A stretch of 63,604 bases of DNA. Source: Desulfonatronum sp. GTDB taxonomy: Bacteria > Desulfobacterota > Desulfovibrionia > Desulfovibrionales > Desulfonatronaceae. Under the pieces are notes generated by a model. The model had not been told where the DNA came from. It searched no databases and saw only the letters and a program-made list of their open reading frames with translations. The stretch lies in NCBI GenBank assembly GCA_011049455.1, contig DSBL01000104.1, positions 1-63,604 on the forward strand, read 5' to 3'. Shown piece after piece: positions 5,274 to 36,361 of this stretch. A program made the translations under genes and the position numbers. Within the stretch, counting starts at the first letter, position 1; every line of letters begins with the position of its first letter.

Positions 5274-6112
5274 CCCAGCCCCATGGACAAACCGTCGTCC
5301 TCCATTTCCGCGACCATGGCGTCCAGGACGATGTCCAGGCGGGATAGGTCCAGTCCCAGCAACTCCAGGGCCTGAGGGTCCAGGGCGGGCACATGGTCCT
5401 CCCCGCCGGAGCCGATCTCCAGGACCCGGGTCAGAAAGTCGCCCACATGAACCACGCAGGCCATTTTCGGATAGTGCTGGGCCGAAACCGGTCGATGGTG
5501 GCCGGAGATGCCGACCTTCAAGTTCAGGGGCAGATTCCAGTGATCAGCGACCCAGGAGTTGACCCGGTCGTGACCGAAACCCAGGACCTTTTTTTCCGCT
5601 TCCAGATAAAACAGATCGCCCTCGGCCACGGCTTGCTCCACCTCTTCCTTGGCTTCGGGCAGCTGCAGGGACACGATGACCTTGCCCAGGTCGTGCAACA
5701 GCCCGGCCACGGCGTATTCCTCGGGCTCCTTGAACCCGGCTTCCCGGGCAATGACGCCGCAGGCCATGGCGCAGCCCACGCTGTGCTCCCAGAGTCCGGA
5801 CATGGAGGTGGTCATCAGCTCGAACACCGAGGTGCTGATGATCAGGCCCTTGATCACGTTGTAGCCCAGAAGCACCAGACCGTGCTGGATGGTGCTAATC
5901 CTCCCGGGAAAACCGTACACCGGGGAATTGACCATCTTCAGAACCTTGGCCGACAGCACCTGGTCCCTGGAGATGAGCTTGGCCACCTGCTCGGTGGAGG
6001 ACAGCGGGTCCTCCAGCAGCTTGGCCACCTGTTCCAGAACCCTTGGCAAGGTGGGCAAATCCTTGACTGCCAGGAGCATGCCCTTGCGTTCGGTACGCAG
6101 ATCCTCGCTCAT
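5270..6112 (-). CDS. Stand-alone HDOD-domain signalling protein
   Basis: A 280-residue protein made almost entirely of an HDOD domain: LPTLPRVLEQVAKLLEDP (about 15-32), LISRDQVLSAKVLKMVNSPV, the ISTIQHGLVLLG segment and the HDLGKV motif near 145. HDOD proteins generally lack nucleotide-hydrolase activity and act as regulators. It overlaps both neighbours by four bases (ATGA at 6109-6112 and at 5270-5273), so the three signalling genes are translationally coupled. The N-terminal domain found in the longer HDOD protein at 237-1505 is here encoded by the preceding gene. Confidence 0.8.
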   Translation of the reverse strand: MSEDLRTERKGMLLAVKDLPTLPRVLEQVAKLLEDPLSSTEQVAKLISRDQVLSAKVLKMVNSPVYGFPGRISTIQHGLVLLGYNVIKGLIISTSVFELMTTSMSGLWEHSVGCAMACGVIAREAGFKEPEEYAVAGLLHDLGKVIVSLQLPEAKEEVEQAVAEGDLFYLEAEKKVLGFGHDRVNSWVADHWNLPLNLKVGISGHHRPVSAQHYPKMACVVHVGDFLTRVLEIGSGGEDHVPALDPQALELLGLDLSRLDIVLDAMVAEMEDDGLSMGLG

Positions 6113-6477
6113 GCCTGTCCTCCCGGGGATGCGGCGGCGTCAGGGGAAGCCTGGTCCGGGCCGGCCGCGGCCACCTTGAGCTGGAAATACTGTTGCAGAT
6201 GTCCGCGCACCTTCTGCATCCATGGGTCCTGGCCGTGCCGCCGAAAAAGATGCTCCAGTCGGCCCAGACGCTGCGCGTGGACGCCTTCTCCGCCGTCGCC
6301 CAGATCAACGGGGTTGCCCTGGACCGTGATGGTCTCGATTTCCATCCGGGCCAAGCGCTCCAGAAGCGATTCGGAAAGTTCCGTGTTTTCGGCCACCAGC
6401 ACCAAGCCGTTGTCCCGGAGAATGGGCTTGGCCAGGGCCATGCCAGGTTTGGCCAGATTCAGCGGTATCCTTTGCAT
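6109..6477 (-). CDS. Small single-domain partner of the HDOD protein
   Basis: A 122-residue protein with GGAG nine bases before its ATG. Residues 1-60 (IPLNLAKPGMALAKPILRD onward) match, by eye, the N-terminal domain of the HDOD protein at 237-1505 (VPIDEIQPGMTLAADVHDR); the rest is a helical tail. The domain commonly sits in front of HD-type signalling domains. As a free-standing gene coupled by ATGA overlap to an HDOD gene, it looks like the split half of a protein that exists elsewhere as a fusion. Its biochemical role is unknown. Confidence 0.7.
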   Translation of the reverse strand: MQRIPLNLAKPGMALAKPILRDNGLVLVAENTELSESLLERLARMEIETITVQGNPVDLGDGGEGVHAQRLGRLEHLFRRHGQDPWMQKVRGHLQQYFQLKVAAAGPDQASPDAAASPGGQA

Positions 6478-6552
6478 GAGCGCTCCACACTGCGTTGTTC
6501 GTGTATTTCGTGCCCGTGGCGGTGGAATCCGTTATTCCTCCACCTGCCCGGT

Positions 6553-7698
6553 TCACTGCAGTTGATAATACATGCCCGGCAACTGGCTGACAATGGCGCG
6601 CATTTCCAGCACCAGCAGCCGCCGGCTGATCTCGCCTGCCTCCCGGCCCAGCACCTGGCAGAGCGCGTCGATGTGCACCCGCTCCCGGCCATGCAGAGCC
6701 TCGGCCAAAAGAAGATCGTCGCCAGCCAGATCCGGCCAGCGCTGGCCGGGTCTCAGGGGCCCGGTCCCGGCAAGTTTGGGCGGTTCAGACGGCGAGTCTG
6801 CCCCAGAGGGCGCCAGCTGGGGTCGCAATTCAGCCAGGATGTCTTCGGCCGACTGCACCAGCATCGCGCCCTGGCGGATCAGGTGATGACAGCCCTCGTA
6901 GCTTTCCAGGTTCACCGGACCGGGCAGGGCGAAGACCTCCCGGCCCTGCTCCAGGGCCGAGGTGGCCGTGATCAGGCTGCCGCTGCGCACCGCGGCCTCG
7001 ATCACCAGCACGCCCAGGGACAGGCCGCTGATGATCCGGTTGCGATGGGGAAAGTTGCGCGCGTCCGGTCTGGTCCCGGGCGGAAACTCGGTGACTATCA
7101 GTCCCCGATCCCGCAAGAGAAGCCACAAATCCCTGTTCGCCGCGGGATAGACCAGATCCAGCCCTGTGCCCAGCACCGCGATGCTCGAGCCCACTTCCTC
7201 CAGGGCTGCCAGATGCGCCTGCCGGTCAATGCCCGAGGCAAAGCCGGAGACGATGCACACCCCGGCCCGGCTCACCTCCTTGCCGATCTTCCGGGCCGCC
7301 TCCAGCCCGTAACGCGAGCAGCGCCGTGAGCCCACCACGGCCAGACAGGGAGACTGCAAAAGCGTGGCGTCCCCCAGCAGATATAGACAGACGGGCGGCC
7401 CGGGGATCTGCCGAAGGATCTCTGGATACCCAGGGTCGAACCAGAGCAGCGCGTGCATATTCCGCGCCAGGGCCGCCTCGGCCTCGTGGTCGGCCTTGGC
7501 GCGCCAGGCGCCGGACTGGAATTCCCGGACCTGGCCGGCTGTGGCCAGTTTTTTGCCCGGCCACTGGACCGCGTCGGCCACGGCCTGCCCGGCGCTGGGA
7601 TAGGCCGAGAGGATCTTTTTCCAGGTGCGCGGGCCCAGGCCCGGGCTGTGGCGCAGGGCCAGGCAGGCCAGATACTCCTGCGTGCGTCGGGCGTCCAT
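6553..7698 (-). CDS. dprA: DNA-processing protein DprA
   Basis: A 381-residue DprA/Smf protein that binds incoming single-stranded DNA and loads RecA during natural transformation. An N-terminal helical region leads into the Rossmann-like core with VVGSRRCSRYG, VSGFASGIDRQAHLAAL and GLDLVYPAANR, the usual DprA signatures; a C-terminal winged-helix follows (about 310-380). I choose the ATG at 7698 because AGGGGG lies six bases upstream; the GTG at 7704 lacks a site. It follows cpoB by nine bases and precedes the signalling genes in the same operon. Confidence 0.9.
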   Translation of the reverse strand: MDARRTQEYLACLALRHSPGLGPRTWKKILSAYPSAGQAVADAVQWPGKKLATAGQVREFQSGAWRAKADHEAEAALARNMHALLWFDPGYPEILRQIPGPPVCLYLLGDATLLQSPCLAVVGSRRCSRYGLEAARKIGKEVSRAGVCIVSGFASGIDRQAHLAALEEVGSSIAVLGTGLDLVYPAANRDLWLLLRDRGLIVTEFPPGTRPDARNFPHRNRIISGLSLGVLVIEAAVRSGSLITATSALEQGREVFALPGPVNLESYEGCHHLIRQGAMLVQSAEDILAELRPQLAPSGADSPSEPPKLAGTGPLRPGQRWPDLAGDDLLLAEALHGRERVHIDALCQVLGREAGEISRRLLVLEMRAIVSQLPGMYYQLQ

Positions 7699-29181: not shown

Positions 29182-30189
29182 ATGGCTCAAACTCCTTTTT
29201 TACGGCTCATTTCCCGCCTGACATCGTCGGTTCTGGCGCTTTTCCTTTGTTTCCCGTCCGCAACGGCTTGGGCCCAGGAGATTCGTTTGTTCCGCATCGG
29301 CACCGGCGGCCTGCTGGGCGTTTACCATCCTCTTGGCCAGGCCCTGGCCGAGGGGATCACCACGGCCACCGCCTTGCCTGAATTGATTGCCGTGGCTCAG
29401 ACCTCCGGAGGCTCCGTGGAAAACGTGCAGGCCTTGCTTGCCGGAGAAATCGAAGCCGGGCTGGTCCAGGCCGACGTGGCCCTATGGGCGCTGCAAGGCC
29501 GGGGGCCCTTTGCGGGCGACGACCGGGGGCGTCATGTCCGCGCCGTAGCCAGTCTCTATCCGGAACGCCTCCAGATCGTCACCCGGCGTGACGCAGACAT
29601 TCGATCCATTACCGATCTGCGCGGCAAATCCATCTCCCTGGATGAGGCCGGTTCCGGCACACTGGCCGTGATGCGCATCGTTTTGGAGGATCACGGACTT
29701 TCGGAAAAAGATCTTTCTCCGGTCTATCTCAAGCCGGAATTCACCACGGAAAAAATTATCTCCGGTGGTTTGCACGGCTTTTGTCTGATGGCCGGCACTC
29801 CGGCCCAGGCCATTACAACCGTCATGGACCAGGATCTGTTCATGGTGCCTGTTGCGCCCGAAATCGCGGCCCGCATCTCCCGGCGACATCCCTATCTTGT
29901 GCCGGGGATGATCCCCGCAGACAGCTACGAAGGCGTCCCGGAAACTGCGACCATTGAAGTGCACGCCTTGCTTCTGGTCCATGAAGACCTAGATGAAGCC
30001 CTGGTTTACGAGATGACAGCAACCCTTTGGAGCGAACAAACCCGGTTTCTGCTGCACCAAGCTCATCCCCAAAGCCGATCCGTCACCCTGGACACCGCTC
30101 TGCAAGGGCTTTCCGTCCCGCTTCATCCCGGGGCTCGCCGCTTCTATCAGGAGCAGAACATGCTGCCTTTGGAGACTCCTGCTCCATGA
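29182..30189 (+). CDS. TAXI-family periplasmic solute-binding protein
   Basis: A 335-residue exported protein with a signal peptide ending near ATAWAQE (about residue 32); GGGAG precedes the ATG at 29182. It has TAXI/TRAP receptor features: IGTGGLLGVYHPLGQALA, QTSGGSVENVQALLAGEIEAGLVQADV, SLYPERLQIVTR and ITDLRGKSISLDEAGSGT. TAXI proteins normally deliver substrates to a fused TRAP membrane component, which is absent here. Its stop overlaps the start of a hybrid histidine kinase (ATGA), so it more likely acts as the sensing subunit of that kinase. The ligand is unknown; organic acids or glutamate-like compounds are typical for the family. Confidence 0.88.
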   Translation: MAQTPFLRLISRLTSSVLALFLCFPSATAWAQEIRLFRIGTGGLLGVYHPLGQALAEGITTATALPELIAVAQTSGGSVENVQALLAGEIEAGLVQADVALWALQGRGPFAGDDRGRHVRAVASLYPERLQIVTRRDADIRSITDLRGKSISLDEAGSGTLAVMRIVLEDHGLSEKDLSPVYLKPEFTTEKIISGGLHGFCLMAGTPAQAITTVMDQDLFMVPVAPEIAARISRRHPYLVPGMIPADSYEGVPETATIEVHALLLVHEDLDEALVYEMTATLWSEQTRFLLHQAHPQSRSVTLDTALQGLSVPLHPGARRFYQEQNMLPLETPAP

Positions 30190-32378
30190 CCCCTGCCCGG
30201 CCGCGGGTCGAGCCCATGCTCTGGATCATTGCCGTGGCTGTGCTGGCCATGGTCCTGGGCTCCGGCATCCATACCAATGTGACGCTGCGATCCGTGGAAC
30301 AGACGCTGCCCACTACCCTGTTGGCCCAGCTTGAAGACCTGACGCGGATCATGGAACACATGTCCGAACTCGTGAATTCCTCTGATCCGAACCGTGGCAG
30401 CCCAACACCGGATTCCATCGATCTTCTCTTGAAAGACATTGAAGTGTTGTTCACCAAGTTGGTGAACCTGCGCAACACCTATGTATTCGACAACCTGATC
30501 CAGGCCTCGGCTTTTCATGCCGTGGTCGCCCCGGCTCTGGTGGATGCCCGGGAATGGTTGACTCGCGGGGTTTCCGGACATGCGCCGGAATCATCTTTGA
30601 CCATGCGCATCGTGCACGCACGACTGCACGACGCCCGGCGCAAGGCCTCAATAGTGCGCTACGAGTCCCATGCCGCGGCCCGGGATGTGCTCCTGGAGCA
30701 GCGCCATCGTCTGGAACGGTTCTTGTCCGGTGTCAACCTGCTTCTTTTCCTGGCCCTGGCCGCCGCCTTGATGGTCCTGGGTCTGACGCTGCGCCAGCTG
30801 CGCCTTGCGCGCCGGGAGGCCATGGTCCAAGCTGAGCGCGAACGGCTGACCATCATCATCGAATCCACCAATGACATGGTGTCCACATTCACTCCGGACG
30901 GCGCCCTGACTTTTCTCAACACCGCGGGCAGGAAGCTGCTGGGCTGGGAAGGGGAAGAAAACTTGAACACCAAGGTCATCTCGGACATTCATCCGTTGCG
31001 GGAAGCAAAAAACATCCTTGCCGTCGGCATCCCCACGGCGGTTCGTCGCGGCAGTTGGTCCGGCGAAACCGCGCTGCTGAACGCACACGGGATCGAGATA
31101 CCCGTGGTGCAGACCATCATGTCTCATAGGACTCCTGACGGCCAAGTGGAGTATCTCTCCTCCATCATCCACGACATATCGGATCGCAAACGCGCTGAGC
31201 AGGAGCGGGAATCCCTTCAAATCCAATTGCTCCAGGCTCAGAAAATGGAGGCTCTGGGCACCTTGGCCGGCGGCGTGGCCCACGACTTCAACAACCTGCT
31301 CCAGGCCATCGGCGGCTGCACCCAGGCGCTGCTCAAGAACGCGGACCGTCACAATCCGGAACACGCCAAGCTAAAGACCATCGAACGAACCGTGGATCGA
31401 GCGGCCCAGCTGGTGCGCAGGCTGCTGCTGTTCAGCCGCAGGGCCGAGGCGCAACGCATCCCCGTCAATTTGAACCAGGCGTTACTGGACGCGGCCACGA
31501 TCCTGGAACAGACCATTCCCAGAATGATCAGCCTGACCATGAACTTGAACGAGCAGCTGTGGCCGGTCCTCGCCGATCCCGCGCAGATTGAACAGATGCT
31601 TCTGAATCTGGGCAGCAACGCCGCCGATGCCATGCCTGACGGCGGCCGACTGGTCCTGGAAACCCGGAACATGTCGCTGGATGACGAGACCGCCGGGGAG
31701 CGCATGGGCTTGCCGCCCGGACCTTACGTCGTGTTGAGCGTCTCGGACACGGGATGCGGCATGGACAAGCCCACCCTGGAAAAAATTTTCGATCCTTTCT
31801 TTACCACCAAGGAAGTGGGCAAGGGTACGGGTTTGGGTATGGCCTCGGTCTACGGCATTGTCCAGGACCATGGCGGGATGATTGCCTGCAGCAGTGAATT
31901 GGACCGCGGAACCGCGTTTACCATCTATTTCCCGGCCATGCCTGATCAGGAGGCCACGAAAACGCTTGCGTCAGCCACAGAAGCGCCTTGCGGCAAACAG
32001 ACCGGAACGGAAACCATCCTGGTCGTGGACGACGAGGCCGATTTGCTGGAACTGACCGCCGAAGCCCTCCGAAACGCGGGCTATGCGACCCTGGAAGCCA
32101 AAAGCGGCGAACAGGCGCTGGAGGCTTTCAGGCTGCACAGGGAGGTCATTGATCTGATCCTTTTGGATCTGAACATGCCCGGCATGGGCGGGCAACGCTG
32201 CCTGAAAGAGCTTCAGCGTCTGGATCCGGCCGCCCGGGTGCTCATTGTCAGCGGCTATGTGCTCAATGATCAGGTCAAGCAGGCCATGGACTCCGGGGCA
32301 TCGGGATTTCTCGGCAAACCTTTCCAGATCGACGAACTGCTCCTCCAGATCCGCCAAATTCTGGACCGCCGGGAATAA
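30186..32378 (+). CDS. Hybrid sensor histidine kinase with C-terminal receiver, coupled to the TAXI protein
   Basis: A 730-residue membrane kinase. Two transmembrane helices (about 12-28 and 182-202) enclose a 150-residue periplasmic domain. A PAS domain follows (about 215-340), then a dimerisation domain with the phospho-accepting His366 in [10 protein letters not shown]. The ATPase domain has the N-box [10 protein letters not shown] and the G-boxes SDTGCGM and [10 protein letters not shown]. The C-terminal receiver starts [10 protein letters not shown] and has the acceptor Asp in LLDLNMPG. No DNA-binding output is attached, so a separate histidine phosphotransfer protein or regulator is expected. 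The start ATG overlaps the TAXI stop, implying the binding protein feeds this periplasmic domain. Confidence 0.9.
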
Positions 32379-34666: not shown

Positions 34667-36361
34667 TTATATTTCCATGCCGATCCTGCGCAGGGCCGCC
34701 AAGCCCCCCTCCAGGTACTGCGTTTTGGTCACGCCTGCGTTTTCCAGGGTAATCTGCGCCTCGTAGGCCCGGCCTCCTGCGTTGCAAAACAGAATGATTC
34801 TTCTGTCCCTGGGCACCTCACCCAGCCTGACCCGCAGTTCATCCTGGGGGATATTTTTCCACACGTCCGGATATTTCTTCAAAAAATCCTGGGCATTGGC
34901 CGGGGCACGGCAATCCAGGATCAGGAAATCCCGGTCAGCCCGTTGCCACAGCTCCGCGAATTCCCGAACATTGAGGGTCTTGCCGCGGCCGTCCAGGATA
35001 TTTTCGGCCGCGTTGGCCACGGCGTTGAGAATGTCCATGGCTGACGAAAAGGGCGGGGAATAGGGCAGCTCCAGATTGCTGATCTCCGACACATGGGGAT
35101 GGCGGGCCAACAATGCGGCCACGGCTCCGACACGGCCGACCAGGCCGTCGTTCTTGCTCCCCAGCCCCTGAATGCCCAGGACCCGCCCGGATTTTCCCAC
35201 GACCAATTCCAGGTGCATTAATTCCTTTTCTGGGAAAAAATGGGCCCGATCAGTCTGGACCACATGGGCGCAAATGGCCTCAAGATCGTTTCGCTTGGCC
35301 ATTTCCAGGCTCAATCCGGCTCCGGCCACGGAAATGTCAAACAGCTTGACCGCAAAACTGCCCACGGCACCGGGAAATTCGGCGTCACCTCCGGCCAGGT
35401 TGGTGCCGATGACCCGTCCTTGCCTGTTGGCCAGGGAACCCAAGGGATAATAGCCGGGCTGGTTCGTGACCAGGTTGGGCAGCTGCACGCAGTTGCCCCC
35501 GGCGTAAATATCCGGATCAGAGGTCTGCATCCGGGCATTGACCATGATCGTGCCCTTGGCGGACACCTCCAGGCCGGCCTCCATCGCCAATTCAGAATTG
35601 GGAATCACACCCACGGACATGATCACCAGGTCGGCTTCCAGCTCCTCGCCTTCCAGGAGAACGCGCTGCACGTGGCTGCCCCCGGCAAAACCGAGAACCT
35701 TGGAGGGCAGGCGAAAATCGACCCCCTGTTCCTGCATATGCTGCCGGGCCATGCGGGCCAGATCAACGCTGACAAATCCCGGCAGCACCTGGTTTGCGAT
35801 CTCCACCACCGTGGTCTCCACGCCCCACATCTCGGTCAATGCCTCGGCCATTTCCAAACCGATGAACCCGGCGCCGATGACCACGGCCTTGCTCACCTTG
35901 CCCCCCTCCACCCGGGAACGAATGGCTTCGGCTTCATCCAGATTGGAAACCGTGAACACCTCGGGCAGGTCCACGCCCGGCAGGTCCGGCTGGCGGGGGC
36001 GGCTGCCGGTGGCCAGGACCAGCTTGTCGTAAGCCAACTGAATCGACTCTCCGGTGTCCAGATTGCGGGCGTGCACCACCTTTGCGACGCGATCTATCCG
36101 CTCCGCTTTGGTCCGGACAAGCACGTCCACGCCCTTGGCCTCGCGAAAAAAGTCAGGGTCTCGAACCATGTTGAAACTGGTTGATTGCAAGGCCTCCACA
36201 TCGCTGACATCCCCTGAAACATAATAGGGAATGCCGCATCCGCCATACGAAATCCGCGCCCCCTGCTCCAGCATGGTCACGCGCGCATCCGGCACAAGCC
36301 GCTTCAATCGGCACGCCGCCTTGGGACCAAGCGCCACTGCTCCAATAATCACCACATGCAT
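34667..36361 (-). CDS. CoA-disulfide reductase-like flavoprotein fused to a rhodanese domain
   Basis: A 564-residue pyridine-nucleotide-disulfide oxidoreductase. FAD-binding IIGAVALGPKAA at the N terminus, redox Cys42 in SYGGCGIPYYVSG, NADH-binding VVIGAGFIGLEMAEAL (about 162-177) and the IYAGGNCVQLPN FAD loop are visible. A rhodanese-like domain occupies about 455-564, with Cys526 in ILFCNAGGRA. Such fusions reduce CoA-disulfide or CoA-persulfide and polysulfide with NAD(P)H and move sulfane sulfur, fitting sulfur metabolism and redox balance in an anaerobe. AAGGAG lies ten bases before the start. Confidence 0.88.
   Translation of the reverse strand: MHVVIIGAVALGPKAACRLKRLVPDARVTMLEQGARISYGGCGIPYYVSGDVSDVEALQSTSFNMVRDPDFFREAKGVDVLVRTKAERIDRVAKVVHARNLDTGESIQLAYDKLVLATGSRPRQPDLPGVDLPEVFTVSNLDEAEAIRSRVEGGKVSKAVVIGAGFIGLEMAEALTEMWGVETTVVEIANQVLPGFVSVDLARMARQHMQEQGVDFRLPSKVLGFAGGSHVQRVLLEGEELEADLVIMSVGVIPNSELAMEAGLEVSAKGTIMVNARMQTSDPDIYAGGNCVQLPNLVTNQPGYYPLGSLANRQGRVIGTNLAGGDAEFPGAVGSFAVKLFDISVAGAGLSLEMAKRNDLEAICAHVVQTDRAHFFPEKELMHLELVVGKSGRVLGIQGLGSKNDGLVGRVGAVAALLARHPHVSEISNLELPYSPPFSSAMDILNAVANAAENILDGRGKTLNVREFAELWQRADRDFLILDCRAPANAQDFLKKYPDVWKNIPQDELRVRLGEVPRDRRIILFCNAGGRAYEAQITLENAGVTKTQYLEGGLAALRRIGMEI

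Follow-up and report, generated by a model that had tools for sequence, protein, structure and literature searches.

Binding proteins are known to engage the sensor kinases TorS, LuxQ and LytS, forming the pairs TorT/TorS, LuxP/LuxQ and XylFII/LytS (PMC6321045). BctC/BctE is a further system with a kinase driven by a binding protein; its binding protein works for the permease BctBA as well, and the regulator BctD is adjacent (PMC5812351, PMC9602780). About ten binding-protein-driven sensor kinases have been characterised so far (PMC9602780). For proteins of the TAXI family, the sole partner described outside TRAP transporters is that of TAXI-GltS; the TAXI-GltS protein BP0403 has a carrier partner and an extra N-terminal domain (PMC12344293). 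Our literature search found no report of a TAXI protein paired with a histidine kinase, an earlier mention in a review being possible.

Here we analysed such a pair in a 63.6-kb stretch of Desulfonatronum DNA (the window). A 335-aa TAXI-family periplasmic binding protein (29182..30189, + strand) is followed by a 730-aa transmembrane hybrid histidine kinase (30186..32378, +), whose ATG lies within the TAXI stop, so that the two genes overlap by 4 bp (ATGA). The first-pass annotation had placed the unit at 29182-32378, noted this overlap and assigned to the kinase a periplasmic domain of about 150 residues and a C-terminal receiver; the coordinates proved exact and all three features were found again.

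We read the pair as a binding-protein-dependent sensor kinase with a probability of about 0.84, the contact between the TAXI protein and the kinase, the ligand, the direction of control and the phosphate route being what we infer. Rather than importing an amino acid such as glutamate, the TAXI protein most likely informs the cell of its presence outside.

By analogy, the best reading is that the pair operates like TorT/TorS or LuxP/LuxQ. As in TorT/TorS, which senses TMAO in Escherichia and Vibrio, a transporter-less binding protein would act on the helical periplasmic domain of a hybrid kinase, and the two genes are encoded together. However, TorT has a sugar-binding-type fold, not a TAXI one, and TorS comes with an Hpt of its own and with TorR next to it, whereas both an Hpt and an adjacent TorR-like regulator are missing at the window pair. 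In addition, the window kinase scored below the cut-off of the TorS family TIGR02956 (130 bits against 676.5), and only its cytoplasmic residues 423-727 were matched. The autoinducer-2 system LuxP/LuxQ likewise has a periplasmic binding-protein gene adjoining a hybrid kinase gene, with no transporter, but it is built from protein families other than TAXI and the window sensor module: the LuxQ sensor is of the PAS type and LuxP is a ribose-binding-type protein.

The citrate system BctC/BctE of Bordetella has a sensor kinase activated by a binding protein of a secondary-transporter family, as we propose for the window pair, which, however, has neither a permease nor an adjacent regulator. Among transport proteins, the TAXI-TRAP receptors VcGluP and TtGluBP share whole-length homology and identical pocket residues with the window protein, but a fused DctQM permease lies beside them, in contrast to the kinase found beside members of the window clade. 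In TAXI-GltS of Bordetella, the TAXI protein has also departed from the TRAP transporter, whereas the partner in the window is a kinase and the genome lacks GltS (no PF03616 match, controls positive). The window unit is neither a TAXI-TRAP transporter, having no adjacent DctQM, nor a TAXI-GltS system, having no GltS gene.

Profile searches assign the binding protein to the TAXI family above the curated cut-offs of both PF16868 (1.5e-66; 225.4 bits, cut-off 27) and TIGR02122 TRAP_TAXI (2.7e-78; 263 bits over the whole protein, cut-off 84.35). Its alignments with two glutamate-binding proteins of solved structure, TtGluBP (1us4, E 4e-42) and VcGluP (8s4j), covered the full length. A Sec-type leader (MAQTPFLRL...ATAWA-QE), read from the sequence, predicts its export to the periplasm.

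The residues that hold glutamate in VcGluP are Y45, S75, Q93, E125 and G156, of which Y45 and Q93 matter most (PMC11574862). All of them are retained in the alignment of 7/7 kinase-linked TAXI proteins compared, which also match TtGluBP in T at 157 and Y at 123. This makes glutamate or glutamine the foremost candidate, and the pocket predicts one of the two as the most likely ligand. A related ligand is also possible, since the Y200 position carries L or M instead. Since transporter-linked TAXI proteins commonly carry identical pocket residues in the alignment, these residues point to a working pocket and do not form a kinase-specific signature.

The order of elements in the kinase is TM1, about 150 periplasmic residues, TM2, a PAS domain (residues 224-331; 30855..31178, +; PF00989, 1.1e-7), HisKA (357-419), HATPase (464-584) and a receiver (611-722; 32016..32351, +; PF00072, 5.6e-26). 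Domain profiles and the alignment place the HisKA and HATPase core at residues 357-584 (31254..31937, +). With H366 as the phospho-acceptor in the core and D661 in the receiver, the protein is, judging by its domains, a hybrid histidine kinase.

The periplasmic sensor module spans approximately residues 33-182 (30282..30731, +), as delimited by alignments and an AlphaFold2 model, and profile searches in Pfam and NCBIfam returned no family for it. Alignments revealed the motif TYVFDN..QAS..H..VAP..D..WL..G.SG..P. In the model, built from four sequences (pLDDT 82.5), helices at 8-65, 75-102, 105-127 and 137-218 form a four-helix bundle continuous with both transmembrane helices; the module is thus predicted to be such a bundle set between two membrane spans. 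Most of the invariant residues fall in the third helix and its flanks (R96, TYVFDN 98-103, QAS 106-108, H111, VAP 114-116, D120, WL 124-125, G128, SG 130-131 and P134). Judging by them, this region is the best candidate for a docking face.

Foldseek gave no fold match to the sensor model at E <= 0.001. The top match, 9m08 chain C, was weak at E 0.02, as is usual for helical bundles, which are common and resemble many structures; further weak matches were to bundles of other kinases and of chemoreceptors. The structure 9m08 is a complex of the kinase QseE with the accessory lipoprotein QseG, and the QseE sensor is a four-helix bundle engaged by the accessory protein (PMC12691602). TorS was absent among the Foldseek matches listed, a TorS-like fold being nevertheless possible. 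A search of the sensor sequence against solved structures gave a best E of 0.049.

No DctM was found in the window, nor near any of the eight TAXI-kinase pairs described below in the available flanks, two of the contigs being short. The assembly of the window genome (2.87 Mb in 164 contigs) is 95% complete, so a permease may be missing from it. TAXI genes and good DctM genes number three each. Besides the window gene there are TAXI genes at C9 and C59, each adjoining its own fused TAXI-type TRAP permease, and therefore the window protein has no unclaimed TAXI permease to serve. At the third DctM locus (C32), which probably belongs to the DctP type, 12 kb of sequence contained no adjacent TAXI gene.

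The TAXI-kinase pair occurs in at least eight genomes from several families of Desulfobacterota, the window genome included. Relatives of the window TAXI protein with 55-67% identity were found in G003, G004 (a Desulfonatronum MAG; same contig as L025), G027, G079 (Pseudodesulfovibrio pelocollis; L026), L027 (Desulfobacteraceae UBA5852), G563 and G712. Directly 3' of each lies a kinase that carries this sensor module (42-58% identical; 47-62% in a comparison against the module of the window). The genes overlap by 4 bp (ATGA or GTGA) at 7/8 junctions; the exception is L027, with the kinase start 7 nt past the TAXI stop. That both the gene pair and the sensor module persist in eight genomes excludes chance pairing.

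Among the 297 genomes of the order, independent searches for the TAXI clade and for the sensor module returned the same five genomes, the two never occurring apart. In 395 genomes of the phylum the module was detected in G000 and G563, and in 55 genomes of another class in G563 and G712, always beside a TAXI gene. One weak match from the phylum search (G416) proved to be an RNase Y coiled coil and was rejected as a chance hit; the remaining weak ones span 36-65 positions. The search of plasmids gave no match to the module.

In a tree of 48 rows, which took in seven kinase-linked proteins, the latter form one clade with 100/100 support, apart from transporter-linked TAXI proteins; its sister is a permease-linked protein of G600. 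The available flanks of 36/39 more distant TAXI proteins (about 27-43% identity) contain a DctM sequence. The three exceptions are L051 and L053, for which only short flanks exist, and L031 (wider locus L068), with none nearby. At this last locus, in G260 (5651-7249, -), the TAXI gene lies beside a short gene for a membrane-protein-like product, DUF1850-like by eye; related loci in other genomes mostly do have DctM.

As a rule, the sensor domain of a kinase evolves more quickly than its core. Here, in G027 and P. pelocollis, identity of the kinase core drops to 26-28% and that of the sensor module is 56-57%. The P. pelocollis kinase has no receiver, and those of G563 and G712 have three PAS domains each, so the sensor module is retained where the kinase core, the number of PAS domains or the receiver is swapped. 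Because the module and its TAXI partner are conserved across swapped cores, and sensors usually diverge faster, this points to mutual constraint between the two. Their pairwise identities are correlated (r 0.82, Mantel p 0.0006, 8 genomes), as would also be expected from co-inheritance alone. The conserved linkage, seen in the eight pairs, their co-occurrence and co-divergence, argues for placing the pair among binding-protein-dependent sensor kinases.

As for the output route, no other receiver-domain gene was detected in the window, and no output regulator lies beside any of the eight pairs within the stretches read. A stand-alone small Hpt protein was not found in the window genome, all four Hpt matches falling in large proteins (frames of 717-1247 aa). 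Possible targets of the receiver are the kinase itself and a distant partner to which it would relay phosphate. The first-pass annotation had described a sensory system with a TAXI protein lacking a transporter and a kinase lacking an adjacent output regulator, in which the ligand-loaded TAXI protein would activate the kinase, and had proposed looking for the pair in other genomes and for a permease in need of the protein. This reading gains support from the conserved pair, its constant adjacency in genomes searched for both parts and the absence of a spare TAXI permease.

The mechanism that we propose is as follows. The exported TAXI protein would capture a small carboxylate or amino acid, likeliest glutamate or glutamine, and dock on the periplasmic four-helix bundle of the kinase, which is translated from the same mRNA. 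When it closed around its ligand, the TAXI protein would alter the bundle and, through it, the kinase, which would autophosphorylate on H366 and pass the phosphate to D661 of its own receiver. From there it would go to an Hpt protein or regulator encoded elsewhere. Slightly better than even odds attach to a broader version: the whole TAXI branch would have left transport and now serve only as the separable ligand-binding part of a sensor. It would dock on a previously undescribed four-helix module that was passed together with it, as a cassette, between kinase types, and would read periplasmic glutamate or a related amino acid.

The same locus could be explained in other ways. The TAXI protein might be an orphan transport receptor whose place ahead of the kinase is incidental and which serves one of the TAXI-TRAP permeases, or a different carrier such as GltS, from another part of the genome. 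Two fused TAXI-type permeases (C9 and C59) are indeed present, and TAXI-GltS provides a precedent for a TAXI protein whose carrier is not of the TRAP type (PMC12344293). However, each of these permeases adjoins a TAXI gene of its own, the genome has no GltS gene, and the pair stays intact in eight genomes despite changing neighbours, unlike what an incidental position would give; we regard this explanation as quite improbable. It is even harder to see the locus as the functionless remnant of a TRAP operon that lost its permease and retained a regulatory kinase. An ancestral link of TAXI to transporters is apparent from the tree, where the sister protein, from G600, is permease-linked, but both frames, the leader, the pocket and the catalytic residues are intact at 42-67% identity across genomes. 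This requires lasting selection, which leaves decay with hardly any probability.

Direct sensing is another possibility: the four-helix bundle of the kinase would itself perceive a ligand or the state of the envelope, with the TAXI protein merely buffering or delivering the ligand, or with both sensing. The sensors NarQ, Tar and PcaY, structural neighbours of the sensor model, are four-helix bundles that bind ligands directly, and the invariant charged and aromatic residues R96, Y99, D102, H111 and W124 would fit such a role. Against it, the sensor module was never found without a TAXI gene in the genomes searched, and we consider direct sensing unlikely.

If the pair is a binding-protein-dependent sensor kinase, it would likely provide an amino-acid sense for sulfate-reducing bacteria. 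Its sensor module belongs to no family and is confined, in the genomes searched, to the vicinity of the TAXI clade, which makes this a clean new pair. Docking, ligand and signalling can be addressed with two small soluble domains.

The surroundings of the pair differ between genomes. In the window, a gene for a P-type cation ATPase (PF00122, PF00689, PF00690; 26394-29129, +) ends 52 bases upstream of the TAXI gene and is possibly on one message with it; it was not seen beside the other pairs. A promoter scan gave nothing above chance. The other neighbour, on the opposite strand, encodes a TlyA/FtsJ-type methyltransferase. In Desulfonatronum G003, the pair is directly preceded by another hybrid kinase, one with multiple PAS domains (L055, 1699-4557, +), which itself follows a short receiver frame (1079-1381), and in G027 a divergent SBP_bac_3 binding-protein gene is located just upstream (L065, 4616-5425, -). 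The window also contains, at 34667-36361 (-), a pyridine nucleotide-disulfide oxidoreductase with a C-terminal rhodanese domain, a layout like that of CoA-disulfide reductase.
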